DNA of 34,776 nt from the NCBI GenBank assembly GCA_016868785.1, contig VGFS01000023.1, positions 1-34,776 of the forward strand, given 5' to 3'. Origin of the DNA: Bacteroidota bacterium (GTDB lineage Bacteria; Bacteroidota; Bacteroidia; NS11-12g; UBA955). The notes below the pieces were generated by a model. That model worked only from the letters and a program-made list of their open reading frames with translations, was not told where the DNA came from and ran no database searches. The position numbers and the translations under genes are program-made. The number at the start of each line of letters is the position of its first letter. Positions within the stretch are counted from its first letter, which is position 1. This document shows positions 17,817 through 33,956 of the stretch, in pieces.

Positions 17817-17821
17817 GGGTG

Positions 17822-17854
17822 CAAAGTTAGGATGAAATTGTTGTGTTACCTTTG
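17822..17854. promoter_or_regulatory. Back-to-back promoters of the meta-cleavage genes
   Basis: Minus strand: TAACTTTG (17829-17822) then CACCC then ATG (17816). Plus strand: TACCTTTG (17847-17854) then GGGC then ATG (17859). Both are exact TAnnTTTG matches and both would give transcripts starting at about the start codon. The 42-bp intergenic gap means the two polymerases compete for the same DNA. Confidence 0.65.
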
Positions 17855-17858
17855 GGGC

Positions 17859-18641
17859 ATGATTTCGCAAGAAGTGATTGAGGCAGCCGCTGCGCGGCTG
17901 CGGGAGGCACAAGCGCAAGGCCTGCCTTGCGCGCCTGTGAGAGAATTGATCGGAGATACCGATATCGCTGCGGCGTATGCCATTCAAAAAGTGAACAACG
18001 ATTTGCGTGTGATGGAAGGTGCGGTGGCGGTTGGACAAAAAATCGGGTTGACATCCTTGGCGGTGCAGAAGCAATTGGGGGTAGACCAGCCCGACTTCGG
18101 ATTATTGTTTGCGGATACGGCAGTGAAGAATGGCGGAAGTTTGCCTGCAACGGCCATTTTGCAACCCAAAGCTGAGGCGGAAATTGCGTTTGTTATGAAG
18201 TCGGACCTTAGCGGCGAAATCAATGAAGATACAGTTGCGGCAGCGGTTGACTATGCGGTTGGTGCCATTGAAATTGTGGGGTCAAGGGTACTAAACTGGG
18301 ACATTCGCATTACGGATACGGTGGCCGACAATGCCAGCGCCAGTCATTTTGTGTTGGGGGATGTAAGAAAATCACTGGATGAAGTGGATTTGGCCAGTGT
18401 GAAAATGAACCTGTACAAAAACGGGGAACTGGTTTCTGAAGGGGTTGGTGCGGCATGTTTGGGAAGTCCATTAAAGGCACTGACTTGGTTGGCGCAGACC
18501 TTTGCGAATTTGGGAACGCCGCTGAAAGCGGGAGATATTGTGCTCAGTGGCGCTCTCGGGCCAATGTGCGCCGGCGAAGCCGGCGACACCTTTGTGTCCC
18601 ACATTGAATCTTTCGGTGAAGTTTCTTTTTCCTTCAATTAA
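17859..18641 (+). CDS. dmpE: 2-keto-4-pentenoate hydratase
   Basis: 260 residues from ATG 17859, chosen because an exact -7 element ends 4 nt before it; ATG 17832 would lie upstream of that promoter. MhpD/DmpE signatures: AYAIQKVNN, VGQKIGLTSLAVQKQLGVDQPDFGLLFAD, LQPKAEAEIAFVMK with metal-binding Glu-x-Glu, GAIEIVGSRV and DTVADNASASHFVLG. It hydrates 2-hydroxypenta-2,4-dienoate to 4-hydroxy-2-oxovalerate, the aldolase substrate. The gene is 15 nt upstream of the acetaldehyde dehydrogenase in one operon. Three perfect palindromes lie in it, two in its first 75 nt. Confidence 0.92.
   Translation: MISQEVIEAAAARLREAQAQGLPCAPVRELIGDTDIAAAYAIQKVNNDLRVMEGAVAVGQKIGLTSLAVQKQLGVDQPDFGLLFADTAVKNGGSLPATAILQPKAEAEIAFVMKSDLSGEINEDTVAAAVDYAVGAIEIVGSRVLNWDIRITDTVADNASASHFVLGDVRKSLDEVDLASVKMNLYKNGELVSEGVGAACLGSPLKALTWLAQTFANLGTPLKAGDIVLSGALGPMCAGEAGDTFVSHIESFGEVSFSFN
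17883..17901 (+). repeat. In-frame hairpin, 8-bp stem, TGC loop
   Basis: GCAGCCGC-TGC-GCGGCTGC, a perfect palindrome encoding Ala-Ala-Ala-Ala-Arg-Leu at the start of the hydratase. On the minus strand the loop is GCA. Confidence 0.75.
17913..17932 (+). repeat. In-frame hairpin, 8-bp stem, CCTG loop
   Basis: GCGCAAGG-CCTG-CCTTGCGC, a perfect palindrome 11 nt after the preceding hairpin, encoding Ala-Gln-Gly-Leu-Pro-Cys-Ala. Confidence 0.7.
18569..18585 (+). repeat. In-frame hairpin, 7-bp stem, GAA triloop
   Basis: CGCCGGC-GAA-GCCGGCG near the 3' end of the hydratase, encoding Cys-Ala-Gly-Glu-Ala-Gly-Asp. The core GCGAAGC is the well-known exceptionally stable DNA mini-hairpin. Confidence 0.75.
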
Positions 18642-18656
18642 CGTTGCAGAACCCCC

Positions 18657-19604
18657 ATGAATCAAGAAAAATTAAAAATTAAAGTAGCCATTATTGGCTC
18701 TGGGAATATTGGGACCGACCTGATGATCAAGGTGATGCGTACTGCCAAATACCTTGAAATGGGCGTATTTGTGGGGATTGATCCGCATTCGGATGGACTT
18801 GCCCGTGCCGAGCGCATGGGTGTCGCCACCACCCACGAGGGCATCGATGGATTGCTCAATCATCCCCTTTGGTCTGAGATCGGTTTCATTTTCGATGCTA
18901 CCTCGGCCAAGGCACACCTTTACAATTACGACAAAATAAAAGCCATCGAAGGCAAGCGTGTCATAGATCTTACACCGGCTGCGATAGGCCCATTTTTGGT
19001 TCCGCCGGTCAATTTCGACACCCTACAAGATGTTCCCAATGTGAACATGGTTACGTGTGGCGGACAGGCAACGATACCCATGGTGGCGGCCGTAAACCGC
19101 GTGGCCAAGGTGCACTACGGTGAAATTGTGGCAAGCATCGCTTCAAAAAGTGCCGGTCCGGGTACCCGTGCCAACATCGACGAGTTCACGGAAACCACGT
19201 CTCACGCCATCGAACAGGTGGGTGGTGCCACGAAAGGAAAAGCCATCATTATTTTGAATCCCGCAGAACCGCCCTTGGTGATGCGAGATACGGTATTCAC
19301 CTTGAGCGAACCGGGCGATCGGGAATCCATTAGGGCAAGCATTCACCAAATGGTGGAAGAGGTGCAACAATATGTTCCGGGTTATCGCCTGCATCAGGAA
19401 GTGCAATTCGAGGACATCGCACCAGAAAATGCAGTATTCATTGAGGGGTTGGGAAAAGTGAGTGGATTGAAAACCACTGTGATGTTGCAAGTGCGTGGGG
19501 CGGGTCATTATCTGCCAGAATACGCGGGGAATTTAGACATTATGACCAGTGCTGCCCTGGCAACTGCCGAGCGCATGGCCAGCATACAAGGAGGTAACGC
19601 ATGA
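18657..19604 (+). CDS. dmpF: Acetaldehyde dehydrogenase (acetylating)
   Basis: 315 residues, standard length. NAD-binding loop [14 protein letters not shown] at residues 12-25; catalytic Cys134 in [36 protein letters not shown] and [20 protein letters not shown] are conserved in DmpF/MhpF. It converts acetaldehyde plus CoA and NAD+ to acetyl-CoA. In known systems it is physically joined to the aldolase DmpG, channelling acetaldehyde; here the aldolase ATG overlaps this gene's stop (ATGA at 19601), consistent with equimolar expression. Confidence 0.96.
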
Positions 19605-20611
19605 AAAAGGTATACATTCAGGATGTAACATTGCGCGATGGTCAGCACGCCATCAAACATCAATACAGCAAAGAAAAAATGACAGAAATCGCTTTGGCGT
19701 TGGATGCGGCCAAAGTAGATGCGATAGAAATTGCCCACGGTGATGGACTGGCGGGCGCGAGTTTTAACTACGGCTTTGGGGCTCACACCGACTGGGAATG
19801 GTTGGAAGGGATCTCAGAGAAATTGCAACACGCGCGATTGACCACTTTGTTGTTGCCCGGCATAGGAACCATTGATGATTTGAAACGGGCGAGGGCTTTG
19901 GGTGTTGAGAGCGTTCGTATTGCAACGCATTGCACCGAAGCGGACATCGCGGCGCAACACATTGAAGCGGCGAAAAATTTGGGAATGGACGTGGGAGGAT
20001 TTTTGATGATGGCCCACATGAATGAGCCCCAAAAATTGGCGGAACAGGCCAAGCTGATGGAAAGTTACGGGGCGGATTGTGTGTATGTCACTGACAGTGC
20101 CGGTGCTTTGTTGATGAATGATGTGGCGGAGCGGATCAAGGCATTCAAAAATGCGCTGAAACCGGAAACGGAAATAGGCATTCATTGTCACCACAACCTG
20201 AGTTTGGGTGTGGCTAATACCATTGTGGCCTTGGAGCATGGCGCCACGCGTTTGGACGCCTCGTTGGCAGGGATGGGAGCAGGCGCAGGAAATGCGCCGT
20301 TGGAAGTGTTAATTGCTGTGTTGAATCGCATGGGTGTGGCACACAACAGCGATTTGTACGCTTTGATGGATGCAGCCGATGATTTGATTCGTCCATTACA
20401 GGTGAGACCGGTGCGTGTAGACCGCGAAACGTTGAGTTTGGGCTATGCGGGCGTTTATTCGAGTTTCTTGTTGCATGCCGAGCGGGCTTCCGAGCGATAT
20501 GGCATCGATACCCGCAGTATTTTGGAGGAGTTGGGTCGGAGAAAAATGGTGGGTGGTCAGGAGGATATGATCGTGGATGTGACCTTAGATATGAGGAAAT
20601 CTGTGGAGTAA
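19601..20611 (+). CDS. dmpG: 4-hydroxy-2-oxovalerate aldolase
   Basis: 336 residues. It is a DRE-TIM metallolyase: [15 protein letters not shown] at the N-terminus (Arg12, Asp13), [26 protein letters not shown] and [16 protein letters not shown] with the metal-binding His pair. It splits 4-hydroxy-2-oxovalerate to pyruvate and acetaldehyde, the latter passed to the coupled dehydrogenase. The C-terminal helices ([30 protein letters not shown]) correspond to the DmpF-contacting domain. It is the last gene of the hydratase-dehydrogenase-aldolase operon. Confidence 0.96.
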
Positions 20612-20672
20612 CGACCAACGGCGGTGTTTACTGGATGGAATTTTGTCATATCTCGATCACTGTGGAATAGTT

Positions 20673-20707
20673 TTTGATATTCAGGACTTCTAAGCACCTT
20701 AAATTTG
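20673..20707 (+). promoter_or_regulatory. Promoter of OmpA-like lipoprotein gene
   Basis: TTTG at 20673-20676, a 23-nt gap, and exact -7 element TAAATTTG at 20700-20707, nine nt before the ATG at 20717. The gap is slightly longer than usual. Confidence 0.55.
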
Positions 20708-20716
20708 CAAAAAACT

Positions 20717-21367
20717 ATGAAGAAAATTCTTTTTATTGGCGCCGTATTGGTTTCAGCGATGATTGGAACTACCGGCTGTGGCATCAAGTCCAAAGAGGCC
20801 TACCAGAAATCTCCTTTGAGTGGATTCGTTGCGGATCAAACCCAATTGATGATTGAGGAAAACAATGTTAAAATGAACAAAGGCGATGGAGGCATCGGCA
20901 AAGTGGTTGAAGAAACCAAAGTGAAAGTGGCGGCCATTGATGCGGATTTGGCCCAATCCAAAGCAGAAATTGATGCGTTGGAAGCCAAATTGGCGGCTGT
21001 TGAAGCTTTGGAAAAGGAGAGCAAAGCAGAATTTGAGCGCAGCAATGTGACCACGTTGTTCTTCGCCTTGAATTCTTCTCAGTTGACAACAGATGGTATG
21101 CAAGAGTTGTATCGTTGGAAAGTGGGTGCTGATCGTTCAGCGACTGCCTACGACTACACCATTGTAATTTATGCTTCTGCTGATAAGACAGGTTCTGATG
21201 TAACCAACGCCAAGTTGCGTGAGCGCAGAGCCAACACTGTGAAAAACTTCATGGTAAACTCTTTGGGCGTGAATGCGGCCAAAATTCAAATCGTAACCAC
21301 ACAACCTGCTTACACTGGTACCAATAACTTAGACCGTCGTGTAGTGGTGGGTGTAGTTGTGAAGTAA
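20717..21367 (+). CDS. OmpA-family lipoprotein
   Basis: 216 residues from ATG 20717 (MKKILFIGAVLVSAMIGTTGC). The Cys after TTG suggests a lipoprotein signal, though the lipobox is not perfect. Residues ~60-115 form a Lys/Glu/Ala-rich coiled coil (DADLAQSKAEIDALEAKLAAVEAL). The C-terminal part (VTTLFFALNSSQLT, VIYASADKTGSDVTNAKLRERRANTVKNFMV) is OmpA-like, binding peptidoglycan. Expected role is envelope anchoring. It has its own promoter and is separated from the aldolase by 105 nt. Confidence 0.82.
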   Translation: MKKILFIGAVLVSAMIGTTGCGIKSKEAYQKSPLSGFVADQTQLMIEENNVKMNKGDGGIGKVVEETKVKVAAIDADLAQSKAEIDALEAKLAAVEALEKESKAEFERSNVTTLFFALNSSQLTTDGMQELYRWKVGADRSATAYDYTIVIYASADKTGSDVTNAKLRERRANTVKNFMVNSLGVNAAKIQIVTTQPAYTGTNNLDRRVVVGVVVK

Positions 21368-21386
21368 CCCCCAGATTGTATCTTCG
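21357..21386 (+). promoter_or_regulatory. Candidate promoter of the GH92 gene
   Basis: TTG at 21357-21359, a 19-nt gap and TATCTTCG at 21379-21386 (7/8 match to TAnnTTTG), six nt before ATG 21393. It overlaps the end of the OmpA-like gene. Confidence 0.4.
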
Positions 21387-21392
21387 TGAGTG

Positions 21393-24300
21393 ATGCTTGG
21401 TCATACTCATCAGAAGAAATCTATATTGTCCATCGCCAGGGTCGTGAAAACGACCCTGGCGATGTCATTTTTGGCCTTCGGCCAATGCCAATTACAAGCC
21501 CAAACGGAAGCAGCCCCCGCCGATTATGTGAATCCTATGGTGGGTACTGGCGGACATGGTCATACCTTCCCTGGTGCGGTGTGGCCCTTTGGTATGGTGC
21601 AATTGTCCCCCGATACCCGCATCGACGACAGTTGGGATGGTTGTGGTGGCTATTACTACGAAGACAGTTTTATTTACGGATTTTCACATACCCACCTCAG
21701 TGGTACCGGGGTGAGTGATTATGGCGATGTGTTGATGATGCCCACGGGCGGACCTTCATCACGGTTGCCAAGTTTCAATCCCTATGCGTATCGTTCAAGG
21801 TATAGCCATGCCAGCGAAGTGGCCGAAGCAGGGTATTATTCGGTGTATTTGCCGGTGTATGAAATCAAAGTGGAACTTACGGCTACCGAGCGGATGGGGG
21901 TGCATCGCTACACGTATTACAGCGCGATGAATCAGAATAAGTATACCGCCAGGGTGCTGATTGATTTGAATCATCGCGATAAGCTGTTGTCGCACGGCAT
22001 AGAGCAATTGGATGAGCGCAGAATTGGTGGGTGGCGACAGAGTAAGGCTTGGGCCAACAACCAGTGGGTGTATTTTACCATGGAATTCGACCATGAAATT
22101 GCGCGTGTGATCACCAGTCAAGACGGCAAACAAGCCATCGTGGAATTCGATTTCGAGCGTAATGGGGGCGAAAAATCGAACCCAGTACAATTGGAAACGT
22201 TGGTGGGTATTTCTTTCACCGATGCCAAGGGCGCCCGGGGCAACTTGATTTATGAAAAGGACATGGCGGTGATACGTTCTGAGGGAAAGGGTGCTGTGCG
22301 CTTTGAAACCTATCGTGCTCAGGCAAAGGCGGCGTGGAATCAAGAACTCGCCAAAATCAAAGTCACCAGCGATTACGAAGCGCAGGCATTTAGGGTAGGT
22401 GCAGAGTCGGCGAAGCGCGATTTAGAAAAACGCAAATTTTATACGGCTTTATACCATTGCATGATCCATCCGAGTTTGGCCAGCGATGCCGATGGGCGAT
22501 ATCGGGGGAGAGATCAGCAGATTCATCGGGCGGGCTTGTACAAAGAAAATGCACCGCCTTATCACAAAGTGTATTCGGTATTCTCATTGTGGGATACATA
22601 CCGGGCCTTGCATCCGCTGTTGAGTATTGTGGATCCCGAGAGAACCATAGACTTTGTTCGCACCTTCTTGCTGCAATACAAGCAGGGTGGAAAATTGCCG
22701 GTGTGGGAGTTGGGCAGTTGCGAAACGGAATGCATGATTGGGTATCACAGTGTGAGTGTGATTGCCGATGTGATGATGAAGGAAATTGGGGTAACGCGCG
22801 ATGCGATGGGACAGCCGAAATATCCTTTTGACTATAAGTTGGCCTTGGAGGCGATGATGCATAGCGCGCGGTTGAAGGATTCGGCTTTTTTGGATTTGTA
22901 CGGACAGAAGTTGGGGTATATGGGCATTGAGAACACGGCAGAAAGTGTTTCTAAGTTGCTGGAATACGCCTACGATGATTGGTGTATTGCCAGGGTGGCA
23001 CAGGCTTTGCCATCGACCCCGCAATCGGTGGTTCAGGAATTTTACGCCCGCAGTGAGCGTTGGAAGAATTTGTACGATGAGAAGACCGGGTTCATGCGTC
23101 CGCGTGTCAATGGAGGATGGCTATCGCCCTTTGATCCCAAAGAGGTAAACAATCATTTTACAGAGGCGAATGCTTGGCAATATTCGATTTACGTACCTCA
23201 TGATATTTTGGGGTTGATGGACAAGTTGGGTGGGGTGAATGCCACGGAAAAACAGTTGGATTCGTTGTTTGGAACGGATTCTCGCACCACGGGTCGTGAC
23301 CAGGCCGATATTTCAGGGTTGATTGGGCAGTATGCCCACGGGAACGAACCGAGTCATCACATGGCGTATTTGTACAATTATTGTGGCAAGCCGGAGAAGG
23401 CTCAGGGGATCATTGACTATGTCTGCAAGCAATTTTATAAAGACAGTCCGGATGGGTTGATTGGCAATGAGGATTGCGGACAGATGAGTGCTTGGTATGT
23501 GATGAGTGCAATGGGTTTTTATCCAGTATGTCCGGGCAGCAATGTATACACCACGGGTGTGCCTCAGTTTTACGAGATTGAGATTGCGAGGGAGGGGAAA
23601 TCGGGATTTTTAATCACGCGGGGGGAGATCAACAGGAAAGAGGACCGAGCCGGGCCGAAGATGTATCCGGACGTTGTGACGGTGGCGGGTGCTAAAAACA
23701 ATGTGGGTGTTAGCGAGGGTGATGTGCTCAAGCCGGAGGCGTTGAAAAAGCCATGGGCGGCGCACCAGATGGAGAAGGCGAAGGCTTCGGAGTTGCCGCC
23801 ATTGCCTACGTTGAAAGATTTGAAAGGCACGCCCGCTGCGCGGGCGGCCGCTTTGCAAGAATTGCAATTGCAGCGGGAGATGGAATTGCGCAGCATGCGC
23901 AAGGTTTATGCAGCGGCAGAACTCACGGTAACGCATCAGCAATTGATGCAATCGGATGGGTTGGTGTTTAGCGAGGTGGAGGATGCTGACAGGGATAAGC
24001 TGATTTTGAAAACTGCCAAGCAAACGGTGTCTACAGCGTTTGTGGCGGTGCCGGTGATTGAGGGTGCTCGCACGTTCAAAGACAGTTTGGTTATACGGGT
24101 GTCTGTCGCCAAGGGCACCAAAGGAATATTGGAAATCCGAGTTTCGAATCGTGAGCGCGTGGCGTTGGACAAAAAAGGCAAACCCGTTAAGCAGGCCAAG
24201 GGTAAGGGTGGCGAAAAATCGGCCATCGTATCGGCTTTGGTGGTGAAGCCAGGCACAATGGAAACCATCACTGCGGAGGCCGATGGGGCCAAGCCTTATG

Positions 24301-24968
24301 AATTTGTGGTGGCCTATGATGCTGTTGTGAGTGCGAGATTGGTGAATACGGAAGTGTACGGCGGTTTGCCGGGGTCGAATCCGGCCGGTGGCAAGGGCGA
24401 TGGGCTGGGTTCGGTTACTTTGGGACAGAGTGATTGGGCTACGGGGGAGTTTAACAAAAAGGAAAATAATTATTCGATTATTTTGGGGGATGGTGTAATT
24501 CCGCACCCCCAATACAGCGCCGGCGGAGCCGGCGCGCTGGTCGACGAGATACGGGGCTCCAAGGAATGGCGAGCAGGGGGATGGATGGGCTTTTATGATC
24601 AAGATTTTTCGGCGGTGATTGATTTGGGTTCGGTGCGATCGGTAAGCGAAGTGTCGGCCCGTTTCTTACAAGATTCCAGGGCTTGGATTTTGATACCAAG
24701 GTCGATGCAGGTATGGTCATCAACCGACGGAGTGAAATATACCCCTTGGGCGCAGGAAGTCGCTTTTAAAGACGATTGGGAGAACAACGAAACGCTGATT
24801 GATCCGGTGGCCATTCAACATACCGATGGCAAAGCCGGAGTGAAGCCAATCAAGGCGCGGTATATCAAAATTGGGGCTGCGAAGTTTGGTAAATTACCGG
24901 AAGGACATTTGGGCTACCCGTACAACGGCAGTGGTTATATTTTCATCGATGAAATTGAAGTGCGATGA
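21393..24968 (+). CDS. GH92 alpha-mannosidase with C-terminal F5/8C-type domain
   Basis: 1191 residues, longer than the ~750-residue GH92 core. The signal peptide (MLGHTHQKK to QLQAQ, ~40 residues) is long. GH92 motifs: DYVNPMVGTGGHGHTFPGA, GFSHTHLSGTGVSDYGDV, YSVFSLWDTYRALHPL, VNNHFTEANAWQYS and NEDCGQMSAWYVMSAMGFYP. GH92 enzymes are Ca-dependent exo-alpha-mannosidases acting on N-glycans. After an Ala/Glu/Arg-rich linker (~residues 800-860) and an Ig-like segment, residues ~1040-1191 (ALVDEIRGSKEWRAGGWMGFY) resemble an F5/8 type C/CBM32 domain. The stop overlaps the CutC start. Four inverted repeats lie inside the gene. Confidence 0.95.
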   Translation: MLGHTHQKKSILSIARVVKTTLAMSFLAFGQCQLQAQTEAAPADYVNPMVGTGGHGHTFPGAVWPFGMVQLSPDTRIDDSWDGCGGYYYEDSFIYGFSHTHLSGTGVSDYGDVLMMPTGGPSSRLPSFNPYAYRSRYSHASEVAEAGYYSVYLPVYEIKVELTATERMGVHRYTYYSAMNQNKYTARVLIDLNHRDKLLSHGIEQLDERRIGGWRQSKAWANNQWVYFTMEFDHEIARVITSQDGKQAIVEFDFERNGGEKSNPVQLETLVGISFTDAKGARGNLIYEKDMAVIRSEGKGAVRFETYRAQAKAAWNQELAKIKVTSDYEAQAFRVGAESAKRDLEKRKFYTALYHCMIHPSLASDADGRYRGRDQQIHRAGLYKENAPPYHKVYSVFSLWDTYRALHPLLSIVDPERTIDFVRTFLLQYKQGGKLPVWELGSCETECMIGYHSVSVIADVMMKEIGVTRDAMGQPKYPFDYKLALEAMMHSARLKDSAFLDLYGQKLGYMGIENTAESVSKLLEYAYDDWCIARVAQALPSTPQSVVQEFYARSERWKNLYDEKTGFMRPRVNGGWLSPFDPKEVNNHFTEANAWQYSIYVPHDILGLMDKLGGVNATEKQLDSLFGTDSRTTGRDQADISGLIGQYAHGNEPSHHMAYLYNYCGKPEKAQGIIDYVCKQFYKDSPDGLIGNEDCGQMSAWYVMSAMGFYPVCPGSNVYTTGVPQFYEIEIAREGKSGFLITRGEINRKEDRAGPKMYPDVVTVAGAKNNVGVSEGDVLKPEALKKPWAAHQMEKAKASELPPLPTLKDLKGTPAARAAALQELQLQREMELRSMRKVYAAAELTVTHQQLMQSDGLVFSEVEDADRDKLILKTAKQTVSTAFVAVPVIEGARTFKDSLVIRVSVAKGTKGILEIRVSNRERVALDKKGKPVKQAKGKGGEKSAIVSALVVKPGTMETITAEADGAKPYEFVVAYDAVVSARLVNTEVYGGLPGSNPAGGKGDGLGSVTLGQSDWATGEFNKKENNYSIILGDGVIPHPQYSAGGAGALVDEIRGSKEWRAGGWMGFYDQDFSAVIDLGSVRSVSEVSARFLQDSRAWILIPRSMQVWSSTDGVKYTPWAQEVAFKDDWENNETLIDPVAIQHTDGKAGVKPIKARYIKIGAAKFGKLPEGHLGYPYNGSGYIFIDEIEVR
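21431..21470 (+). promoter_or_regulatory. Terminator-like 15-bp hairpin inside the GH92 signal-peptide region
   Basis: CATCGCCAGGGTCGT-GAAA-ACGACCCTGGCGATG is a perfect 15-bp stem with a GAAA tetraloop (21431-21464), followed by TCATTTTTGG. It has the anatomy of an intrinsic terminator but lies in the first 25 codons of GH92, 63 nt after the OmpA stop. It could terminate ompA or attenuate GH92. Confidence 0.6.
21471..21485 (-). repeat. In-frame hairpin, 6-bp stem, GAA triloop on minus strand
   Basis: TTGGCC-TTC-GGCCAA, six nt after the larger hairpin, encoding Leu-Ala-Phe-Gly-Gln in the signal peptide. On the minus strand the loop is C-GAA-G. Confidence 0.6.
23830..23846 (+). repeat. In-frame hairpin, 7-bp stem, TGC loop
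   Basis: CGCCCGC-TGC-GCGGGCG in the Ala/Glu-rich linker of GH92, encoding Thr-Pro-Ala-Ala-Arg-Ala. Confidence 0.75.
24517..24535 (+). repeat. In-frame hairpin, 8-bp stem, GGA triloop
   Basis: GCGCCGGC-GGA-GCCGGCGC at the start of the F5/8C-type domain of GH92, encoding Ser-Ala-Gly-Gly-Ala-Gly-Ala. Confidence 0.75.
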
Positions 24969-25666
24969 AAGGGGTTGAGGTTTGCGTATTCTCAGTGGAT
25001 GACGCCTACGCGGCAGAGGCGGCGGGCTGCGCCCGCCTTGAACTGTGCCAGGATTATCAACTGGGAGGCATTACACCCTCGCTCGAAGATTTGCAGAAAA
25101 TGAGCCCCACGAACATTGTGAATGACGTTCGACACGGACTCCGCGTAACGGCGGTGGTGATGGTAAGGCCCCGCGGGGGTGATTTTCTTTACAGCAAACG
25201 CGAGAAAAAATGGATGCTTACCACCATCAAGCAAGTCGCCAAATTGGGTTTTCAAGGGGTGGTTTTAGGGGCCCTGTTGAAAAGGAATGGGCGGTGGCTG
25301 CTCGACAAAGAATTTTGTATGCAGGCTTGTGAACTGTCGCACTCGCTGGGATTGGAGGCAGTGCTTCACCGGGCATTTGATGAAATTGCGACCCCATTGA
25401 ATGCCGTTTCTGAGGCCGAAGAATGTGGGTTTGATCGCATCTTAACCGGTTGGGGCAGTATCAACATGGAAACGCTCAAGATGCTGAAGTGGCATGCCGA
25501 GGCCATCGATGTTTTGCCGGGTGGTGGAATCCGGTCAGACAATGTACAATATTACCGGGATTTGGGATTTTTGGAGGTGCACACGTCCGCCCGCGGAGCG
25601 GGCGGACAGCTCGACATCGACCAACTCAAACAGATGGTTGAGGTGATGAAAGGGGTGCCGCTTTGA
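24965..25666 (+). CDS. cutC: CutC family TIM-barrel protein
   Basis: 233 residues, typical CutC size. Motifs: VEVCVFSVDDA at the N-terminus, ARLELCQDYQLGGITPS (family consensus GGADRIELC, here AGCARLELC), VMVRPRGGDFLYS, VLHRAFDE, FDRILTGWG and LPGGGIRSDN. CutC was named for copper homeostasis in E. coli, but the enzymatic role is uncertain. Here it is sandwiched by overlaps: ATGA with GH92 upstream and a shared A of TGATG with GH2 downstream. That placement between two mannosidases suggests a function in glycan breakdown. Two perfect palindromes lie in the gene, one replacing the conserved GGADR segment. Confidence 0.93.
   Translation: MKGVEVCVFSVDDAYAAEAAGCARLELCQDYQLGGITPSLEDLQKMSPTNIVNDVRHGLRVTAVVMVRPRGGDFLYSKREKKWMLTTIKQVAKLGFQGVVLGALLKRNGRWLLDKEFCMQACELSHSLGLEAVLHRAFDEIATPLNAVSEAEECGFDRILTGWGSINMETLKMLKWHAEAIDVLPGGGIRSDNVQYYRDLGFLEVHTSARGAGGQLDIDQLKQMVEVMKGVPL
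25021..25037 (+). repeat. In-frame hairpin, 7-bp stem, TGC loop
   Basis: GGCGGGC-TGC-GCCCGCC in cutC, encoding Ala-Gly-Cys-Ala-Arg-Leu where most CutC proteins have Gly-Gly-Ala-Asp-Arg-Ile. Confidence 0.75.
25585..25607 (+). repeat. In-frame hairpin, 10-bp stem, GGA triloop
   Basis: GTCCGCCCGC-GGA-GCGGGCGGAC, a perfect 10-bp stem in cutC, encoding Ser-Ala-Arg-Gly-Ala-Gly-Gly after the conserved HTSAR. Confidence 0.8.
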
Positions 25667-28446
25667 TGCGACCCTCGATCTCTGTCCCGTCGAAGATGTT
25701 CAGGGGTATTTGTTTCGTCGTGTTGATGCTCGGCAACACAAATCTCTTCGCCCAGCCTTCAATTCAATTGCCTCCACCCGATGTTTACCAGGCCACGGTG
25801 AATCAATCATCCAAAAGCCATCGCATCGAACAATGGGAACTGTTGGAAGAGGATTTCTCCATGGCCATCGTGAACAATGAAGCCCATGCGGACCAATTGC
25901 ACGAGTATGATTCTACCGTTTCGGGTCGCGGTTGGATTCCTGTAAAATATACCCCAGCCATCAACGATTTGTTTTGCCCGCACCCATCGCCCTCGGCTTG
26001 CAGCGAAAATTGCGGTAAAAATCCGCTGGCCTGCGATCACATACGGCTTACGTCCTGCAACAGTCACTGCAACAGTGTGGAGTGGCGACGGTGGACCTAC
26101 CGGGCAGCGTTGTTCGAAAATGCGGAAGCAGCCCAGCAAGAGGAACACCATTTTTTGCAAATCAAGCAGTGGGAAGGTGCCTATATTGAGGTTAGGATCA
26201 ACAATAAATTGGTGAAAGAAGTGAATCCGCTACTCAGCAGTTTCGCCGATATTACCATTGATTTGGATGGTCTCATTGAAAAGGATGGGAAGGATTCTGT
26301 CTATATTTTCTTCGATTCTCCCAGTCAAATTGGTGCCCTGTATAGCGAGCGGTCGAGGATGGTGTTTCCGGCCGATAATGAAGCACAAATCACCACTTTT
26401 GGCAGTTATGGGTTGGATAAGGAGGGTAAGCCTGCGGCCAAGGCGAGTCCGTTCTTGCGTAAGCCCATCGTGCAGTATGGTTGGGATATTGCGCCCCGCA
26501 GGGTGTTGGTGGGTTTGGGCGAGGGCGTTTTTGTGCATGGATGGAGCGACAACCACTTGCAAACGCTGAACATTACCGAAGACTCCTCGTGGATGGGGGT
26601 TGAATCAGGTAAGCCGGTGGAATATGTTTACGGATATGCCGAGTTGTATTATCTGTGCGATACGATGCGAGGTCGGCCCGATTTTGTGCGTGTGACATCG
26701 GGGAATTTGCCCGACATGTACGACGATATTGAATGGGATGTTGTGCGATTGGGCGATAAGGATGAGGACAAGGTCATCGTTTCGGCGAATGAATTTGGGG
26801 CGGAAGCCAGGTATCGCAAGTTTGCGTTTCGGGTGAAAAATCCCAAGCATTGGTTTCCGAATGGGCTGTATCAACAATTGAATCAGGATTCGCATCCGGC
26901 GCTGTATCATATAGAGATTTCGGCGCATCAGCTGGACAAAAATGGCCGCAATCAGATTCATAGCATTGAACGAAATTGGGGTATTCGGTCGGTGAGGTTG
27001 GATACTACTGGCGGACGATTTGCGTTTTCCGTCAATGGGGTTTCTGTATTTGCGATGGGTGCAAATTTGATTTGGGCGAGGCAGTTTGGCGACAGTGCAA
27101 GTGTGTATCCGGAGCGACTGTTTTTGGGTGATCCTGGCGATTTGAGTCAGTTAGACATCATGCGTGCCCAGGGTTACAACATGGTGAGAATTTGGGGCGG
27201 TGGGGCTTATCCAAGTGAGGCGTTTTACGATCGATGCGATGCCTTGGGAATCATGGTTTGGCAGGATTTGATGTTCAATGGAACGATGTACCCTGATGCC
27301 GCCAATTTTCTTGAAGCGGTGGAGTCGGAGGTCTTGTCGCAGGCAATGCGGTTGAACAATCACCCGAGTTTGGCTTTGTGGTGTGGCAACAATGAGATCG
27401 AAGTGGCTTGGCACAATTGGGGCTGGCAGCAGAAGTACAACATCCACGGGCTGGATAGCGCCAGGATGTGGCATGCGTATTTGACGCTGTTTGATACGGT
27501 CATTCCGGAGGCGTTGGGGGTATGGTCGGGCAGTGTGCCTTACTCCCGAAGCAGTCCGATTGGCAATTGGGGCAATTTGCAGCAGATGAAACGGGGCGAT
27601 AACCACGATTGGGGTGTCTGGCATGGGGAGCGTGGTTTTACGCATTTGGATTCGGCGCGGATGCCGTTTTGCAGCGAGTATGGATTACCGAGTCCTGCGG
27701 AATGGGATTGGCAAGAGGATGTTTCGCCTTGGGAATCAACGCTGTTGAGTTATAAGGGGCCCAAGTTATTGCGCAAATATGTGGAAACGGAGTATCCCAA
27801 ATCTTGGCCGCATCGGGGTATTGAATCGGTTGAGAAGATGGATTTTGTGGATTCCGCGGCGGTGGTGCAGGGTGAGTTTTTATGTAGGGCGATGATTAGT
27901 CACCGGATGGCATCGCCGTATTGTATGGGGTCGTTGTATTGGCAGTACAATGATATTTGGAACGGAACGACTTGGAGTGTTGCGAATACCGAATCTAGGT
28001 GGAGTATGTTGAAATCCTCGCAAGGAAAGGTGGCCGAGGCGATGTTGCCGGTGGTGATGAAGTTGATTCCGAGTGGATGGTGGGGCGTGAAGGATCAGTT
28101 TTTTATACAATTAAATTCTCGGTTGATCGATAATGGCAAGGTGCCGCTAGAGATTTCTGCCTATGATTCATTGGGGCGGCTGTTGTTTGAGAAGGCGTTA
28201 GAGGTCAAATTGCCGGGGAACTGGCAAATTCTGGCTGATGGATTATCAACGACCCGGGTGATTCCTATTTCTTTTGCGGGCAAGCGTAAATACCAGAAAA
28301 AGATGGACCGGGTGAGTTATTATTCGGTTCGTTTGATTCAGCCAGCAGCCGCGCAGCGGCTGCTGGACCTAATACCAGAGGGTAAACACTTTTATGAGGG
28401 TTATCCGGTGCTGGAGGAATGCCTTTGGGTTGGTGCTCCGCGATAA
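25666..28446 (+). CDS. GH2 beta-mannosidase-like glycoside hydrolase
   Basis: 926 residues from ATG 25666 (TGATG overlap with cutC); ATG 25696 would give a tidier signal peptide (MFRGICFVVLMLGNTNLFAQ). N-terminal jelly roll, Ig-like region and TIM barrel of GH2 are present: GANLIWARQF, YNMVRIWGGGAYPSEAFYD, WQDLMFNGTMYP, HPSLALWCGNNEIE with acid/base Glu577 and MPFCSEYGLPS with nucleophile Glu671. GANLIW and the WCGNNE form point to beta-mannosidase, expected to cleave the core Man-beta-1,4-GlcNAc of N-glycans. Six cysteines at residues 104-135 form an unusual insert in the N-terminal domain. An 11-bp-stem palindrome lies near the 3' end. Confidence 0.92.
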   Translation: MRPSISVPSKMFRGICFVVLMLGNTNLFAQPSIQLPPPDVYQATVNQSSKSHRIEQWELLEEDFSMAIVNNEAHADQLHEYDSTVSGRGWIPVKYTPAINDLFCPHPSPSACSENCGKNPLACDHIRLTSCNSHCNSVEWRRWTYRAALFENAEAAQQEEHHFLQIKQWEGAYIEVRINNKLVKEVNPLLSSFADITIDLDGLIEKDGKDSVYIFFDSPSQIGALYSERSRMVFPADNEAQITTFGSYGLDKEGKPAAKASPFLRKPIVQYGWDIAPRRVLVGLGEGVFVHGWSDNHLQTLNITEDSSWMGVESGKPVEYVYGYAELYYLCDTMRGRPDFVRVTSGNLPDMYDDIEWDVVRLGDKDEDKVIVSANEFGAEARYRKFAFRVKNPKHWFPNGLYQQLNQDSHPALYHIEISAHQLDKNGRNQIHSIERNWGIRSVRLDTTGGRFAFSVNGVSVFAMGANLIWARQFGDSASVYPERLFLGDPGDLSQLDIMRAQGYNMVRIWGGGAYPSEAFYDRCDALGIMVWQDLMFNGTMYPDAANFLEAVESEVLSQAMRLNNHPSLALWCGNNEIEVAWHNWGWQQKYNIHGLDSARMWHAYLTLFDTVIPEALGVWSGSVPYSRSSPIGNWGNLQQMKRGDNHDWGVWHGERGFTHLDSARMPFCSEYGLPSPAEWDWQEDVSPWESTLLSYKGPKLLRKYVETEYPKSWPHRGIESVEKMDFVDSAAVVQGEFLCRAMISHRMASPYCMGSLYWQYNDIWNGTTWSVANTESRWSMLKSSQGKVAEAMLPVVMKLIPSGWWGVKDQFFIQLNSRLIDNGKVPLEISAYDSLGRLLFEKALEVKLPGNWQILADGLSTTRVIPISFAGKRKYQKKMDRVSYYSVRLIQPAAAQRLLDLIPEGKHFYEGYPVLEECLWVGAPR
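28342..28366 (+). repeat. In-frame hairpin, 11-bp stem, GCA triloop
   Basis: CCAGCAGCCGC-GCA-GCGGCTGCTGG, a perfect palindrome near the 3' end of the GH2 gene, encoding Pro-Ala-Ala-Ala-Gln-Arg-Leu-Leu. Its core is the reverse complement of the one at 17883. Confidence 0.8.
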
Positions 28447-28526
28447 AAAACTTTTTGCGTTTTTCGCATTACAATCAGGTGCCCCCGTTTTGGATAGGGA
28501 TGTAATATTGATCGAGATGAGAATGA

Positions 28527-29561
28527 TCAATCCAACAAATAACTCGCTTTGCGTACTTCGGCCATATCGCCTGTTTTTACGGCATAGGTAAAGCCCGGAC
28601 GCAATGCATACGCCCCGATATCGCCATGGGGATTGATGGCAATGAACCCGATTTGCGTGTTGCTCCAATCCTTGCCGCGCAATACAAATTTGTCGCGGAT
28701 GGCCATGACTGCTTGCTCGCAGGCTTCTTGCGGACTTGCCCCATGTCGCATTTCTTCCACCACCCGGAACGAACCCACCACGCGGATGACTTCTTCGCCT
28801 TGACCAGTTGCGGTAACAGCGCCCACTTCGTTGTCGACGTACAAACCTGCCCCGATGATGGGAGAATCGCCAATCCTGCCATGCATTTTAAACGCCATGC
28901 CTGAGGTGGAACATCCGCCCGATAAATTGCCGCTGGCGTCCATGGCGATCATGCCAATGGTATCGTGGTTTTCGATGTTGATGACTGGCGTATATTCGGC
29001 TTTTTTGAGCCATTCTTTCCATTCGCGTTCGCTGTCTGGTACCAACAAATTCACTTTTTCAAACCCTTGTTCTACCGCGAATTGGGTGGCCCCTTCTCCT
29101 GCCAGCATAACGTGGGGCGTTTTTTCCATCACGGCACGGGCCACACTGATGGGGTTGGCGATGTGTTCCATGCAAACCACGGATCCAATGTTGCCTTTTT
29201 CATCCATGATACAAGCATCCAAGGTAACGTGTCCGTCGCGATCAGGTCTTCCCCCGAAACCCACACTTCTCTCGGTAGGATCGTTTTCGCACTGACGGAT
29301 TCCTTGTTCAATGGCATCCAAGGCTCTGCCTCCCGCGGCCAACGTAGGCCAAGCAGCTTCGTTGGCTTGCAATCCGAAGTTCCATGTGGTGACAATCATG
29401 GGGGCGCCTTGTTTGCGCTTGGGATTGCCCTTTTTTGTGCCTTTTTTCTTGTTGGAATCGTATGGCGATATCAAGTCAGCAGCGGCGATGCCTGCGGTTG
29501 GAAGTCCCACCATGGCCGCCAAGCCAGAGAGTTGTTTGAGGAATTTTCTGCGGTTGTTCAT
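28527..29561 (-). CDS. N4-(beta-N-acetylglucosaminyl)-L-asparaginase (glycosylasparaginase)
   Basis: 344 residues. MNNRRKFLKQLSGLAAMVG is a twin-arginine signal (RRKFLK), so the folded enzyme is probably exported to the periplasm. The Ntn-hydrolase body includes TLDACIMDEKGNIGSVVCMEHI, the autocleavage site ENHDTIGMIAMD with nucleophile Thr201, and GRIGDSPIIGAGLYVDNEVGAVTATGQGE. It hydrolyses the GlcNAc-Asn bond, the final step in N-glycoprotein breakdown. A Lys/Gly-rich stretch (residues 38-51) follows the signal. It is 27 nt downstream of the GH20 gene in one operon and convergent with GH2. Confidence 0.93.
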   Translation of the reverse strand: MNNRRKFLKQLSGLAAMVGLPTAGIAAADLISPYDSNKKKGTKKGNPKRKQGAPMIVTTWNFGLQANEAAWPTLAAGGRALDAIEQGIRQCENDPTERSVGFGGRPDRDGHVTLDACIMDEKGNIGSVVCMEHIANPISVARAVMEKTPHVMLAGEGATQFAVEQGFEKVNLLVPDSEREWKEWLKKAEYTPVINIENHDTIGMIAMDASGNLSGGCSTSGMAFKMHGRIGDSPIIGAGLYVDNEVGAVTATGQGEEVIRVVGSFRVVEEMRHGASPQEACEQAVMAIRDKFVLRGKDWSNTQIGFIAINPHGDIGAYALRPGFTYAVKTGDMAEVRKASYLLD

Positions 29562-29588
29562 GATGAAATGGTGCTGTTTGGCCGTGGA

Positions 29589-31187
29589 TTATTTTTTGTT
29601 GCCGTTGCGGAAGAACGTGGCTGGTTCGCCGAAGACAGTGGGACAATAATTGATGTTGTTCCAATCTTTTCGATGCACTGACAGGCGGCGTTTGAAATCG
29701 GTAAAATCTTTTTGTTGGGGGTTGGACCACAATACTTCGCTCAAGGCAGGCATTCGGGGCATGACCATGTATTCAACGTGTTCGGGGCTGAGTATGTATT
29801 CCGTCCAAACGTTGGCTTGAGCGCCCAAAATGTATTGATGCAGGCTATCGGGCAGTGTTGCGGGAATGGGTTCGTAGGCGTACACGTTTTCGATGGGGTT
29901 GTAGCCGCCAATGGCATGAGGTTCTGTGCTGTCTTTGCTTTGGTAATGGTCCCAATAGAGGGGCTTGCCGGGGGTCATGATGGCATTGTGGTGCTGCTGG
30001 GTCGCGGCGATGCCTCCTTCGGTACCCCGCCAACTCATCACCGTGGCTTTGGGTGCTAGTCCGCCTTCCAATATTTCATCCCAGCCAATGATGTTCCGTC
30101 CCTGAATGGTGTCACCGGTAGCATTTACATACCATCCCGAATCTTGCAAATACTTTTCGATGCGTTGTATGAAGTAGCTCTGCAGTTCGTGCTCGTCTTT
30201 GAGGCCATGGTCTTTCATGCGTTGTTGGCATTTGAGACAGTGTTTCCAGCGTTCTTTCGGACATTCATCGCCGCCGATATGGATATAGGGCGAGTTGGGG
30301 AAAGTGCGCATGGTTTCTTGCAAAATGTTCTGCAAAAATGTGAAGGTGGCTTCGTTGCCTGCACAAAATACATCATCGAAGACGCCCCAGCCTTTGGCAG
30401 TTTCAAAGGGTCCGCCGGTGCAGCTTAATTCGGGGTAGGCCGCGAGCGCAGCGAGCGCATGGCCGGGCATTTCAATTTCGGGGATTACTGTGATGTTATA
30501 ATGTTGGTCACAAGAGTTGGCAAATTCTTGGAGGCACACTTGGCTATAATTCCCGCGGTAGGAAAAAGTGTCGAAATGTTGCAGAGAATAGGGTCCTGTT
30601 TGTGTGCCGTTGCGGGTTGAAGAAATGGTATTGAGTTTGGGGTATTGTTTGCTTTCGAGCCGCCATCCTTGATCATCGGTGAGGTGGAGGTGGATTACAT
30701 TGAAGCGATATTTTGCAGCCATTGCGGCGTATTTATAGAGGAAGGAGCTATCGAAATAATGCCTCGATACATCCAAGTGCATCCCCCGGTAACGGAATCG
30801 GGGGTAATCGGTGATGGTCATGCACGGGATTTTTCCATTATATAATTTGATAAGTTCTGAAAGCGTATGGCCTCCGTGCATTAAGCCATTTTGATCGGCG
30901 TATTCGAGCGTGATGTTTTTTCTTTTAATGGATAATTTATATCCTTCGGCAGGAAGATTTGGGTTTTTTCGTGGCTCGTCTATGACGAATTTACTGTAAC
31001 CGCCTCGGGGCGACATCTCAATCATTTGGGGCGCAGGAATGATGCCTGGGTTGAGGGCAGGGTCGTAAGTGGGTGCAGAGGGAGTTTGTGCAGACGCTTG
31101 GCTTGTTGCAAAGGCCATCACACAGAAAACGAGGCAGGGCATCACCCTGAAAATCAAACCGAAAAACATCGAAAAGAAACCCCGCAT
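29589..31187 (-). CDS. GH20 beta-N-acetylhexosaminidase
   Basis: 532 residues from ATG 31187 (MRGFFSMFFG, signal peptide ending SQASAQ), 16 nt after the upstream gene's stop; ATGs at 31169 and 31142 are alternatives. GH20 motifs: GMHLDVSRHYF, FNVIHLHLTDDQGWRLES, IPEIEMPGHALAALAAYPELSC, YIHIGGDECPK with catalytic Asp307-Glu308, WDEILEGGLAP and QANVWTEYILSPEHVEYM. It removes terminal beta-GlcNAc/GalNAc residues. A tandem 9-nt repeat (GCGAGCGCA twice, 30442-30459) encodes the ALAALA run. It is the middle gene of a minus-strand operon ending in glycosylasparaginase. Confidence 0.95.
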   Translation of the reverse strand: MRGFFSMFFGLIFRVMPCLVFCVMAFATSQASAQTPSAPTYDPALNPGIIPAPQMIEMSPRGGYSKFVIDEPRKNPNLPAEGYKLSIKRKNITLEYADQNGLMHGGHTLSELIKLYNGKIPCMTITDYPRFRYRGMHLDVSRHYFDSSFLYKYAAMAAKYRFNVIHLHLTDDQGWRLESKQYPKLNTISSTRNGTQTGPYSLQHFDTFSYRGNYSQVCLQEFANSCDQHYNITVIPEIEMPGHALAALAAYPELSCTGGPFETAKGWGVFDDVFCAGNEATFTFLQNILQETMRTFPNSPYIHIGGDECPKERWKHCLKCQQRMKDHGLKDEHELQSYFIQRIEKYLQDSGWYVNATGDTIQGRNIIGWDEILEGGLAPKATVMSWRGTEGGIAATQQHHNAIMTPGKPLYWDHYQSKDSTEPHAIGGYNPIENVYAYEPIPATLPDSLHQYILGAQANVWTEYILSPEHVEYMVMPRMPALSEVLWSNPQQKDFTDFKRRLSVHRKDWNNINYCPTVFGEPATFFRNGNKK

Positions 31188-31203
31188 GAACGCGAAGATA
31201 GGG

Positions 31204-31959
31204 TTAAGCGCGGTTACTTCTCCAGGTGGCGAGGGCTTTGTGGAGGTGGTAAAAGGCGAAGAAATGCAGGATGATGGCGAATTCCAAGCCCAATATGTAC
31301 CAAGGCCATTCTCCGATGACAAAGGGGTTATCGGCCGTGGGCTTTTGGCACAGATACATGTAGTTTCCGCCGGTGAGGTAATTGGCGCCGCCGATCACGG
31401 GGATGGTGAGCTGGGTATAGAGGAAAACCTTCCACCAAGAACCAGGTCGGGGCGTATAGCCCAATCGCATCGTAGCGTACATAGATCCCAGGATGATGAT
31501 GCCATGGGAGATGCTGTATTCGATGTGGTTGTAGAGGGAGGATCCGTTGGTGATTTCCGGCGTGAGGAAGGCATGGATGGCGCCCGCGCCCCAATAAACT
31601 AGTAACTCATAGCTGAGTTGTGAGCCGCGGATGAGGAGGTAGGCAGCGATGAAGGCCGACATTCCACACAGGTGTAGGGGTAGGCTATTTTCGATGTACC
31701 ACGTGTGGTCGAGGACCATTTTGATGTTGGAAGCCGCGAAGTTGATCAATGACAGTGCGCCCAAGAACCAGCCCAAAGATTTGCGGTTTTTTTCGGTTTG
31801 ATTTTTTGAGGCGATGAGGATGAGCAGGAAAAGGCCCCAGAAGATGCCGTTCATGGAAATCCAATCGGGGGAGCCCAATGGAACTGTGTGGTGAAGGTGG
31901 TTTAGGTCGAGGGGTTTGGTAGCCATACCTTGCGGATCTGCGATTGAAAGTGTATCCAT
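31204..31959 (-). CDS. YwaF/TIGR02206-like integral membrane protein
   Basis: 251 residues from ATG 31959. About six membrane helices are visible (e.g. GIFWGLFLLILIA, LGWFLGALSLINFA, LCGMSAFIAAYLLI, WPWYILGLEFAIILHFFAFY). LPLHLCGMSAF, YWGAGAIHAFLTPEI and GGANYLTGGNYMYLCQKP are the conserved motifs of the YwaF family, related to TMEM164. The function is not established. It is first in the operon with GH20 and glycosylasparaginase, and divergent from the sugar permease. The open frame extends upstream to 32220 but that would overlap the permease. Confidence 0.8.
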   Translation of the reverse strand: MDTLSIADPQGMATKPLDLNHLHHTVPLGSPDWISMNGIFWGLFLLILIASKNQTEKNRKSLGWFLGALSLINFAASNIKMVLDHTWYIENSLPLHLCGMSAFIAAYLLIRGSQLSYELLVYWGAGAIHAFLTPEITNGSSLYNHIEYSISHGIIILGSMYATMRLGYTPRPGSWWKVFLYTQLTIPVIGGANYLTGGNYMYLCQKPTADNPFVIGEWPWYILGLEFAIILHFFAFYHLHKALATWRSNRA

Positions 31960-32110
31960 AGAAGTGCGCAAGATAAAAGTTATTGGTTGAAAAAAACCAA
32001 GCGACGAGAGATTATTGTCTTTTTTACAATATTTCTTCACGAATTGGTTGGCGGTGTTGGATTTGCCGTGAAAAAGTTGTTTTTTGCCACCTTGCTTTAA
32101 ATCGAATCGA

Positions 32111-33535
32111 ATGACACAAAACAACACTACCCGTGCGTTTGCCACTTTGGTCAGCGTTTTCTTTTTCTGGGGCTTTGTAGCGGCCAGTAACGACATTCTC
32201 ATCCCAGTTTTCAAGGACAAATTGCAATTGGAACAATGGCAGAGTCAGATGATATCTTTTGCTTTTTACGTGGCATACACGCTGGGTGCATTGGGATATA
32301 TGTTGGTGAGTTTTCTGATGAAGTGCGATTTGCTCGGTCGTTTGGGCTACGGCAAAGGGATTGCTTTGGGCTTGGTGATTAGTGCGATTGGCAGTTTATT
32401 GTTTATTCCAGCGGCGGATTCGGCCTCGTTTCCGATGTTGCTGGGTGGATTGATCATTGTGGGATTGGGTTTTTCGCTGCAGCAGACAGCGGCAAATCCT
32501 TTGGCCATTGGTTTGGGGTCGCCTGAAACTGGCTCTCAGCGTTTGAGCATGGCCGGTGGGGTGAATAATTTTGGTACTACGATTGGACCTTTGCTGGTGA
32601 CTGCGGCCATTTATGGCTCGATGGGTTCGGGCTCTGGTACGGAATTGGATGTAAGCGCGGTGAAGGTGCCTTATTTGGTATTGGGCGCGTTGTTTATATT
32701 GTTTGCCGCGATTTTTTATCGTTTGGATGTGAAGGTTGAGGCAGCAGAATCGGTGAGTGCGGGTGAGGACGACGGCAAATCGGTATTGTCTTACAAGCAA
32801 GTGTGGATGGGTATGATTGCAATCTTTTTGTATGTGGGGGTTGAGGTAAGTACCGCGGGCAATTTGAGTGAATATTTGAAGTCGAATTTGAATGTGGCCA
32901 CCCGCGACGCGGCGCCTTATATTTCTTTGTTTTGGGCGAGTTTGATGATTGGTCGGTGGACCAGCTCTGCGGGTTCGTTTAATGTGAGTGATACTTGGAA
33001 GAAGGCTTTGCGTTTGTTGTTGCCATTGGCTGCATTTGCCGTGTATTTGGGGGTGAATACCAAAGCGGGTTACCAAGTAGACGGGTTTTATCCTTATTTG
33101 GGCATGATTGGGGTGTTGGTGGTGATGGACTTCTTGAGTAAGGGAAATCCGGCCCGACAGTTACTGATTTACAGTTTATGTGGCATGACTGCGTTGGTGG
33201 TAGGAATTTTCATGGGCGGACATATCGCGGCGATGGCGTTTGTGAGTGTGGGGTTGTTTTGTTCGACCTTGTGGCCTTGTATTTTCACTTTGGGAATTGC
33301 TGGGTTGGGTAGCAAAATGCCCAAAGCCTCGAACTATTTGATCATGATGATCATGGGTGGTGGGGTTGTGAGTGTTTTTCAGGGTAGTCTGGCCGATGAA
33401 AAGGTATTGGGAATTTTGAATAGTTACTGGGTGGGTGTGGCGTGTTTTGCTTACTTGGCCTATTATGCGGTGAGCATGACGGCTCACTTCAAAAAAGAGG
33501 GAATCGAGGTGGGTGCGCCGGTTGGCGGCCATTAA
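32111..33535 (+). CDS. MFS sugar permease, FucP/NagP family
   Basis: 474 residues from ATG 32111 with about 12 membrane helices. The start RAFATLVSVFFFWGFVAASNDILIPVFKDKL is typical of the FucP/GluP/NagP group; LGFSLQQTAANPLAIGLG and GGVNNFGTTIGPLL match the helix 4-5 region. These are proton-coupled symporters for fucose, glucose/galactose or N-acetylglucosamine. In this neighbourhood of N-glycan hydrolases, GlcNAc (NagP) or mannose is the most likely substrate, by inference. It is divergent from the YwaF-like gene with a 151-bp shared upstream region. Confidence 0.88.
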   Translation: MTQNNTTRAFATLVSVFFFWGFVAASNDILIPVFKDKLQLEQWQSQMISFAFYVAYTLGALGYMLVSFLMKCDLLGRLGYGKGIALGLVISAIGSLLFIPAADSASFPMLLGGLIIVGLGFSLQQTAANPLAIGLGSPETGSQRLSMAGGVNNFGTTIGPLLVTAAIYGSMGSGSGTELDVSAVKVPYLVLGALFILFAAIFYRLDVKVEAAESVSAGEDDGKSVLSYKQVWMGMIAIFLYVGVEVSTAGNLSEYLKSNLNVATRDAAPYISLFWASLMIGRWTSSAGSFNVSDTWKKALRLLLPLAAFAVYLGVNTKAGYQVDGFYPYLGMIGVLVVMDFLSKGNPARQLLIYSLCGMTALVVGIFMGGHIAAMAFVSVGLFCSTLWPCIFTLGIAGLGSKMPKASNYLIMMIMGGGVVSVFQGSLADEKVLGILNSYWVGVACFAYLAYYAVSMTAHFKKEGIEVGAPVGGH

Positions 33536-33626: not shown

Positions 33627-33699
33627 GGTATCGTAGCTCAGTTGGTAGAGCAAAGGACTGAAAATCCTTGTGTCGACGGTTCGATTCCGCCCGATACCA
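33627..33699 (+). tRNA. tRNA-Phe (GAA)
   Basis: 73 nt, folding as a cloverleaf: acceptor GGTATCG/CGATACC, D-arm GCTC/GAGC with AGTTGGTA loop, anticodon arm AAGGA/TCCTT with loop CTGAAAA (anticodon GAA), 5-nt variable loop and T-arm GACGG/CCGCC with loop TTCGATT. CCA is not encoded. The second T-stem pair is an A-C mismatch, whereas G-T or G-C would be usual. The adjacent integrase indicates that this tRNA is an integration site. Confidence 0.96.
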
Positions 33700-33733
33700 C
33701 AAAAACGAAGTTTATCCACATTCAATTTTGTTC

Positions 33734-33757
33734 AGGGCCGTTCATTTGAGCGGCCCT
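33734..33757 (+). terminator. Hairpin downstream of tRNA-Phe
   Basis: AGGGCCGTTC-ATTT-GAGCGGCCCT, a 10-bp stem with one G-T wobble and a 4-nt loop, 34 nt after the tRNA. The tail (AACTGTTTG) is only moderately T-rich, so it may be a tRNA terminator or part of the attachment region. Confidence 0.5.
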
Positions 33758-33772
33758 AACTGTTTGATTTCA

Positions 33773-33802
33773 TTGGGCTTGACGTTTAACGATGTAGTTT
33801 TG
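33773..33802 (+). promoter_or_regulatory. Candidate integrase promoter
   Basis: TTG at 33773-33775, a 19-nt gap and exact TAGTTTTG at 33795-33802. This leaves a leader of ~160 nt before the integrase ATG that includes the palindrome at 33852. Confidence 0.5.
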
Positions 33803-33851
33803 TGTCGTTATAGGTCAATCATGTTTATACACATCCAAAACACCCCAATGA

Positions 33852-33863
33852 GACAAATTTGTC
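33852..33863 (+). promoter_or_regulatory. 12-bp palindrome in the integrase leader
   Basis: GACAAATTTGTC is perfectly palindromic. It sits between the candidate promoter and the integrase start, with a related GTCACAT-T-rich sequence at 33862 and 33929. It is a possible repressor or recombinase arm site. Confidence 0.4.
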
Positions 33864-33948
33864 ACATCCATTTTTGTCCCTTTTTTGCCTTTCAGTTCGA
33901 TTCCGGGAAAACATCCCAAAATCGAAAGTCACATTTTTCAAGTCTGAG

Positions 33949-33956
33949 AAAGGAGG
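33949..33956 (+). promoter_or_regulatory. Strong Shine-Dalgarno sequence of the integrase
   Basis: AAAGGAGG, ten nt before ATG 33967. It is the only full-strength SD I see before a gene in this window and fixes the integrase start. Confidence 0.8.

Follow-up and report, generated by a model that had tools for sequence, protein, structure and literature searches.

What would a protein with a copper label do between two mannosidases? This question is raised by a locus in a Bacteroidota bacterium (assembly GCA_016868785.1), in which the gene for CutC overlaps glycosidase genes at both of its ends. Many genomes, human included, list CutC as a copper protein, and the copper label goes back to older genetics; to our knowledge, no reaction has been assigned to the family. 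The window analyzed here is the whole of a 34,776-nucleotide stretch (contig VGFS01000023.1, positions 1 to 34,776, forward strand), and the features of its glycan cluster are as follows.

21390..24968, forward strand: exo-alpha-mannosidase of family GH92 with an N-terminal signal and, at the C-terminus, an F5/8 type C-like domain; its start codon is uncertain
24965..24968, forward strand: ATGA start/stop overlap of GH92 with cutC, read from the sequence and present also in L033-L037
24965..25666, forward strand: cutC, a divergent CutC-family TIM-barrel protein (fold by homology) without an export signal
25663..25668, forward strand: overlap TTGATG of the cutC stop and the GH2 start (TTG at 25663, ATG at 25666)
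25666..28446, forward strand: GH2 beta-mannosidase-like protein with an N-terminal signal and a Pfam GH2 galactose-binding domain
28527..29561, reverse strand: glycosylasparaginase (AGA) with the twin-arginine signal MNNRRKFLKQL; Asparaginase_2 PF01112, 4e-74
29589..31322, reverse strand: GH20 beta-N-acetylhexosaminidase; Pfam Glyco_hydro_20, 1.4e-95
32084..33535, forward strand: sugar MFS transporter of the GluP/NagP/FucP type, a candidate importer of the released sugar

The cutC gene, its neighbors and its two junctions

The GH92 protein matches Pfam Glyco_hydro_92 (1.3e-141) and, above cut-off, NCBIfam TIGR01180, and the top 12 solved-structure matches of GH2 are beta-mannosidases (best E 7.9e-64). 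Against solved structures, the AGA reaches 1.3e-129 with the bacterial glycosylasparaginase 1p4k and 1e-39 with L-asparaginase/isoaspartyl peptidase; solved AGA beta chains align from its residue 201, within NHDTIG. It is therefore a glycosylasparaginase on two counts, being closer to bacterial AGA and having the nucleophile threonine at the start of the beta chain. The GH20 start is probably a signal-bearing ATG internal to the listed open reading frame. The transporter matches NCBIfam gluP (1e-46) and NagP (2.7e-41), both under the curated cut-off. As judged from these assignments, GH92, GH2, GH20 and AGA would make a plausible set for complete N-glycan breakdown to the GlcNAc-Asn link. Among the genes scanned by Pfam at 17052-31322 there was no SusC/SusD pair, and the cluster does not qualify as a PUL of the SusC/SusD type.

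The CutC protein itself is a clear member of its family, with a match to Pfam PF03932 at 3.6e-39 (134.8 bits, gathering cut-off 23.3). All 19 residues that are invariant in an alignment of 13 CutCs from several phyla, including E5, R24, E26, R68, F74, H135, D139, G188 and H206, are kept in it. Like other members (human 3iwp; enterobacterial 1twd; 2bdq; 4r9x), it gives a full-length match and has no export signal. It shares only ~30-37% identity with other CutCs, forms a long branch, and, unlike those members, is encoded between two mannosidase genes. Its score of 130.6 bits with the E. coli-type equivalog NF008603 is below the 311-bit cut-off. We infer the TIM-barrel fold from the solved homologs; an AlphaFold model built on a 7-sequence alignment reached a pLDDT of 59.6, too low for use. 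The glycine-rich GGGI followed by HTSA near the last strands resembles the phosphate-binding loops of other TIM barrels, and a phosphorylated substrate is possible.

Both overlaps described in the initial annotation can be read directly from the sequence. The GH92 open reading frame, 21390-24968, has the 3' end ...GTGCGATGA, and the ATG of cutC at 24965 produces a 4-base ATGA overlap, which is kept in five relatives (71-85% protein identity). At the other end, cutC is closed by the TGA at 25664-25666, and an in-frame GH2 ATG at 25666 produces a 1-base overlap (TGATG). In the relatives, a TTGA or GTGA overlap is conserved at this second junction but lacks the ATG, which is seen in the window alone; thus, GH2 may in fact be translated from TTG 25663 rather than from ATG 25666.

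The initial annotation further held that such coupling is hard to explain for a copper protein, and this argument did not survive. Overlaps occur in 3 of the 13 same-strand neighbor pairs listed for the window, one of which is an unrelated pair (19604/19601, 4 bases). We have therefore dropped gene overlap as evidence by itself. Overlap alone is weak evidence; the conservation of the arrangement and the neighborhood statistics far exceed chance.

The same CutC was found in 8 loci of related freshwater or metagenome Bacteroidota at 70-89% identity. GH92 is directly upstream of cutC in all 8, GH2 is directly downstream in the 4 loci with sufficiently long contigs (4/4), and AGA and GH20 occupy the same position in 3 of those 4. 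The protein is evidently under purifying selection, with pairwise dN/dS between the window and five relatives of 0.07-0.13.

Linkage and co-occurrence of CutC with glycosylasparaginase

We sampled 296 Bacteroidota genomes, of which 92 contain CutC, and examined 94 CutC loci including that of the window; to tell AGA from isoaspartyl peptidases, we used the window AGA as the query and kept high-identity matches. The initial annotation had staked its reading on an enrichment of cutC beside glycan-degrading genes in other genomes, and this enrichment was found and is very large. In 46 of the 94 loci, an AGA gene is no more than 2 kb from CutC, compared with ~0.15 expected from an analytic chance level of ~1.1 AGA per 4.2 Mb genome. 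The linkage spans 11 families and 29 genera; AGA is upstream of CutC on the same strand in 39 of the 46 linked loci, and the spacing is 30 bp or less in 18 of the 34 measured. The L182 AGA (G179:C1:669230-670093) is within an open frame of ~1060 residues, possibly a fusion.

Co-occurrence leads to the same partner. In the class of the window, 60 genomes have both CutC and AGA, 2 have CutC only, none has AGA only and 11 have neither; among all 296 genomes the corresponding numbers are 84, 8, 36 and 168, both sets of counts being uncorrected for shared ancestry. The phi coefficient with CutC in the class is 0.90 for AGA, 0.26 for GH92, and 0.35 for NagB, for which weak matches, mostly from one family, were scored absent. 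No single recurrent candidate was found to replace CutC beside AGA in the genomes that lack it. On the CutC tree, the linked/unlinked label takes 19 changes, at least 9 of which are forced by well-supported branches. Since the window and its relatives are set apart on this tree by a long branch of their own, it is probable that their lineage either entered the pathway independently or underwent strong divergence.

A similar arrangement is that in Hymenobacter tibetensis (L157), where CutC, glycosylasparaginase, GH92 and a sugar MFS are also in one cluster; the Hymenobacter gene set consists of GH92, ROK, AGA, CutC, NagB and MFS. As in other Bacteroidota pairs, AGA is immediately upstream of cutC in L157, whereas in the window it is found 2.9 kb downstream of cutC, on the opposite strand, and the genes coupled to cutC are GH92 and GH2.

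This coupling could mean that the substrate of CutC is mannose or a mannosyl compound and that its place between GH92 and GH2 reflects mannose use. Indeed, in the window and in its relatives alike, cutC is directly coupled to both, and a GH2 beta-mannosidase is found within 2 kb in 10 of the 94 loci, including other families in which GH2 is likewise downstream of CutC; GH20 lies within 5 kb in 9. However, GH92 is within 2 kb in just 2 of the 94 loci, 24 genomes with CutC and AGA contain no GH92, the mannosidases are exported and CutC is not, and the neighbors beyond Bacteroidota are GlcNAc genes (see below). We regard a mannose substrate as quite improbable. The specific partner of CutC is AGA, not the mannosidases. 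The earlier proposal that CutC works in the same pathway as its neighbors thus holds for glycan breakdown, with AGA and GlcNAc metabolism taking the place that it had given to the mannosidases. We have found no paper in the open literature that links CutC to glycosylasparaginase or to nag genes.

Amino-sugar neighbors in other phyla and the copper label

Other phyla were viewed through plasmid and chromid records, a non-random set without a matched control, and in this set CutC lies beside or near amino-sugar genes in Qingshengfaniella, Paracoccus (two), Kozakia, Sinorhizobium, Loktanella, Sphingomonas, Asticcacaulis and Pseudoalteromonas. The gene types there are ROK/BadF GlcNAc-type kinase, NagA, NagB, SIS isomerase, GH20, MurQ and sugar ABC transporters. 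Two BadF neighbors match the GlcNAc kinase model NagK, and two ROK neighbors tested have a GlcNAc kinase as their best match, in each case below the curated cut-off. GH20 and MFS genes are near CutC in Peteryoungia, PTS and SIS genes in Listeria, and fucosidase and ROK genes in Alkalihalophilus. The locus on Sinorhizobium meliloti pSymB (L146; ROK, SIS, NagA, GntR) resembles the window in that CutC stands amid amino-sugar genes. Alphaproteobacterial GlcNAc loci such as this one have no AGA or mannosidases nearby, unlike the window, and the genome of the window differs in turn by having no detected ROK, BadF, NagA or NagB. CutC was not detectable in viral contigs; the phage records H61-H77 that carry CutC look like host chromosome fragments in phage preparations.

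No sugar genes were found near CutC in E. coli, E. faecalis, Cetobacterium, Entomospira and Parabacteroides. CutC could be a metabolite-repair or housekeeping enzyme of general function, without a pathway of its own, which joins operons opportunistically. Such a role would suit these genomes without sugar context as well as the sporadic distribution of CutC in Bacteroidota (92/296), but it does not fit a distribution that in one class matches that of AGA almost perfectly, or a linkage that changes again and again on the tree, and we consider it quite unlikely.

The neighborhoods also bear on the copper label. If CutC were a copper-binding or trafficking protein, its co-transcription with glycan genes would be mere happenstance. 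Apart from the family name, the alignment offers the cysteines C7 and C28, present in nearly all members, which have been proposed as Cu(I) ligands in human CutC. The copper phenotype of cutC in E. coli is attributed to the small RNA at the 3' end of the gene, a link for which we have found no paper in the open literature. A regulatory small RNA gene at the 3' end of E. coli cutC is on record (PMC6358824). The sharing of that 3' end with a small RNA gene, the sugar-gene neighbors in many unrelated lineages, and a dedicated Cu(I) ATPase on another contig of the window's genome all argue against a copper protein, which we hold to be very improbable. A sugar-salvage enzyme is the more likely identity for CutC.

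A possible role in amino-sugar salvage

A twin-arginine-like RR-x-[FL] motif is found near the N-terminus in 45 of 47 AGAs, and a hydrophobic N-terminal stretch in all 47; the window GH92, GH2 and GH20 likewise have signal-like N-termini. The CutC of the window begins directly with the first barrel strand, without an export signal. Because export signals are present on the glycosidases and AGA and absent from CutC, we infer that CutC is cytosolic and acts on an imported product. The initial annotation had suggested a TIM-barrel hydrolase or isomerase acting on a sugar product. This suggestion is still the best reading, with the exception of ManGlcNAc, which would be a substrate beside the exported glycosidases, where a CutC without a signal is not expected.

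The twin-arginine-like motif of the AGAs would also be expected if CutC were no enzyme at all and served instead as a cytosolic folding or quality-control helper of the twin-arginine-exported glycosylasparaginase, and the adjacency and co-occurrence of the two genes would follow as well. Yet some bacteria have CutC together with GlcNAc kinases and NagA and no AGA nearby, and CutC has kept enzyme-like invariant charged residues; a helper function seems to us extremely improbable.

The reading that we prefer makes CutC a cytosolic enzyme of amino-sugar salvage whose job is not copper; with localization and catalysis both deduced, we consider it reasonably probable. The exported GH92, GH2 beta-mannosidase, GH20 and glycosylasparaginase would strip glycopeptides to mannose, GlcNAc and aspartate, and the sugar MFS transporter would take the products into the cell. 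There CutC, presumably the sole non-exported soluble protein produced alongside the hydrolases, would process an amino-sugar product, GlcNAc or a derivative, as a TIM-barrel enzyme.

It is doubtful that CutC is a mere servant of the NagA/NagB route. None of the NagA, NagB, Glucosamine_iso, ROK and BadF models found a match in the genome of the window (2.07 Mb, rated 100% complete), which does have GH20, AGA and a NagP-like transporter, and a NagB match is also absent in seven other genomes with CutC and AGA. Since NagA, NagB, ROK and BadF are all missing from its own genome, CutC would not simply serve this route.

Because AGA is the tightest partner of CutC, our leading guess is an enzyme that acts on the amine released by AGA or on carbon 1 of GlcNAc. 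Glycosylasparaginase, which is lacking in aspartylglucosaminuria, frees aspartate and 1-amino-GlcNAc in its first step, and the latter hydrolyzes spontaneously to GlcNAc and ammonia. The end products are aspartate, ammonia and GlcNAc (review, PMC5134220). CutC might hydrolyze 1-amino-GlcNAc to GlcNAc and ammonia, a guess at the reaction that we would still call unlikely; given the spontaneous hydrolysis, an enzyme for the amine product of an exported AGA may not be needed. Counting against salvage are also the 36 sampled genomes with AGA and no CutC, the 8 with CutC and no AGA, the CutC genes of E. coli, E. faecalis, Cetobacterium and Parabacteroides that have no sugar genes nearby, and the lack of NagA, NagB, ROK and BadF matches in the window's genome. 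In its broadest form, the proposal would be that the CutC family, across its range from bacteria to humans, consists of 1-amino-sugar hydrolases, or of comparable enzymes at carbon 1 of GlcNAc derivatives, which complete the glycosylasparaginase reaction, and that the copper label is wrong family-wide; this seems rather unlikely. The partnership of AGA and CutC, together with the amino-sugar neighbors beyond Bacteroidota, gives an orphan family a short and testable list of substrates, and an amino-sugar role, if true, would correct the widespread copper annotation of CutC.

Several other features were noticed in the window. Two adjoining open reading frames at 421-3261 have photolyase FAD-binding domains, with no N-terminal photolyase domain detected in the first. 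Upstream of the glycan cluster, a coupled trio of the meta-cleavage type (17856-20611, with ATGA at 19601) encodes an FAA hydrolase/2-oxopentenoate hydratase, an acetaldehyde dehydrogenase and an HMGL-like/DmpG aldolase, and homologs of all three are near cutC in a few relatives. At 33630-34776, a putative tRNA-Phe (anticodon GAA, by eye) is followed by a tyrosine recombinase-like open reading frame that runs past the window end, and this region is probably an element integrated at the tRNA gene.
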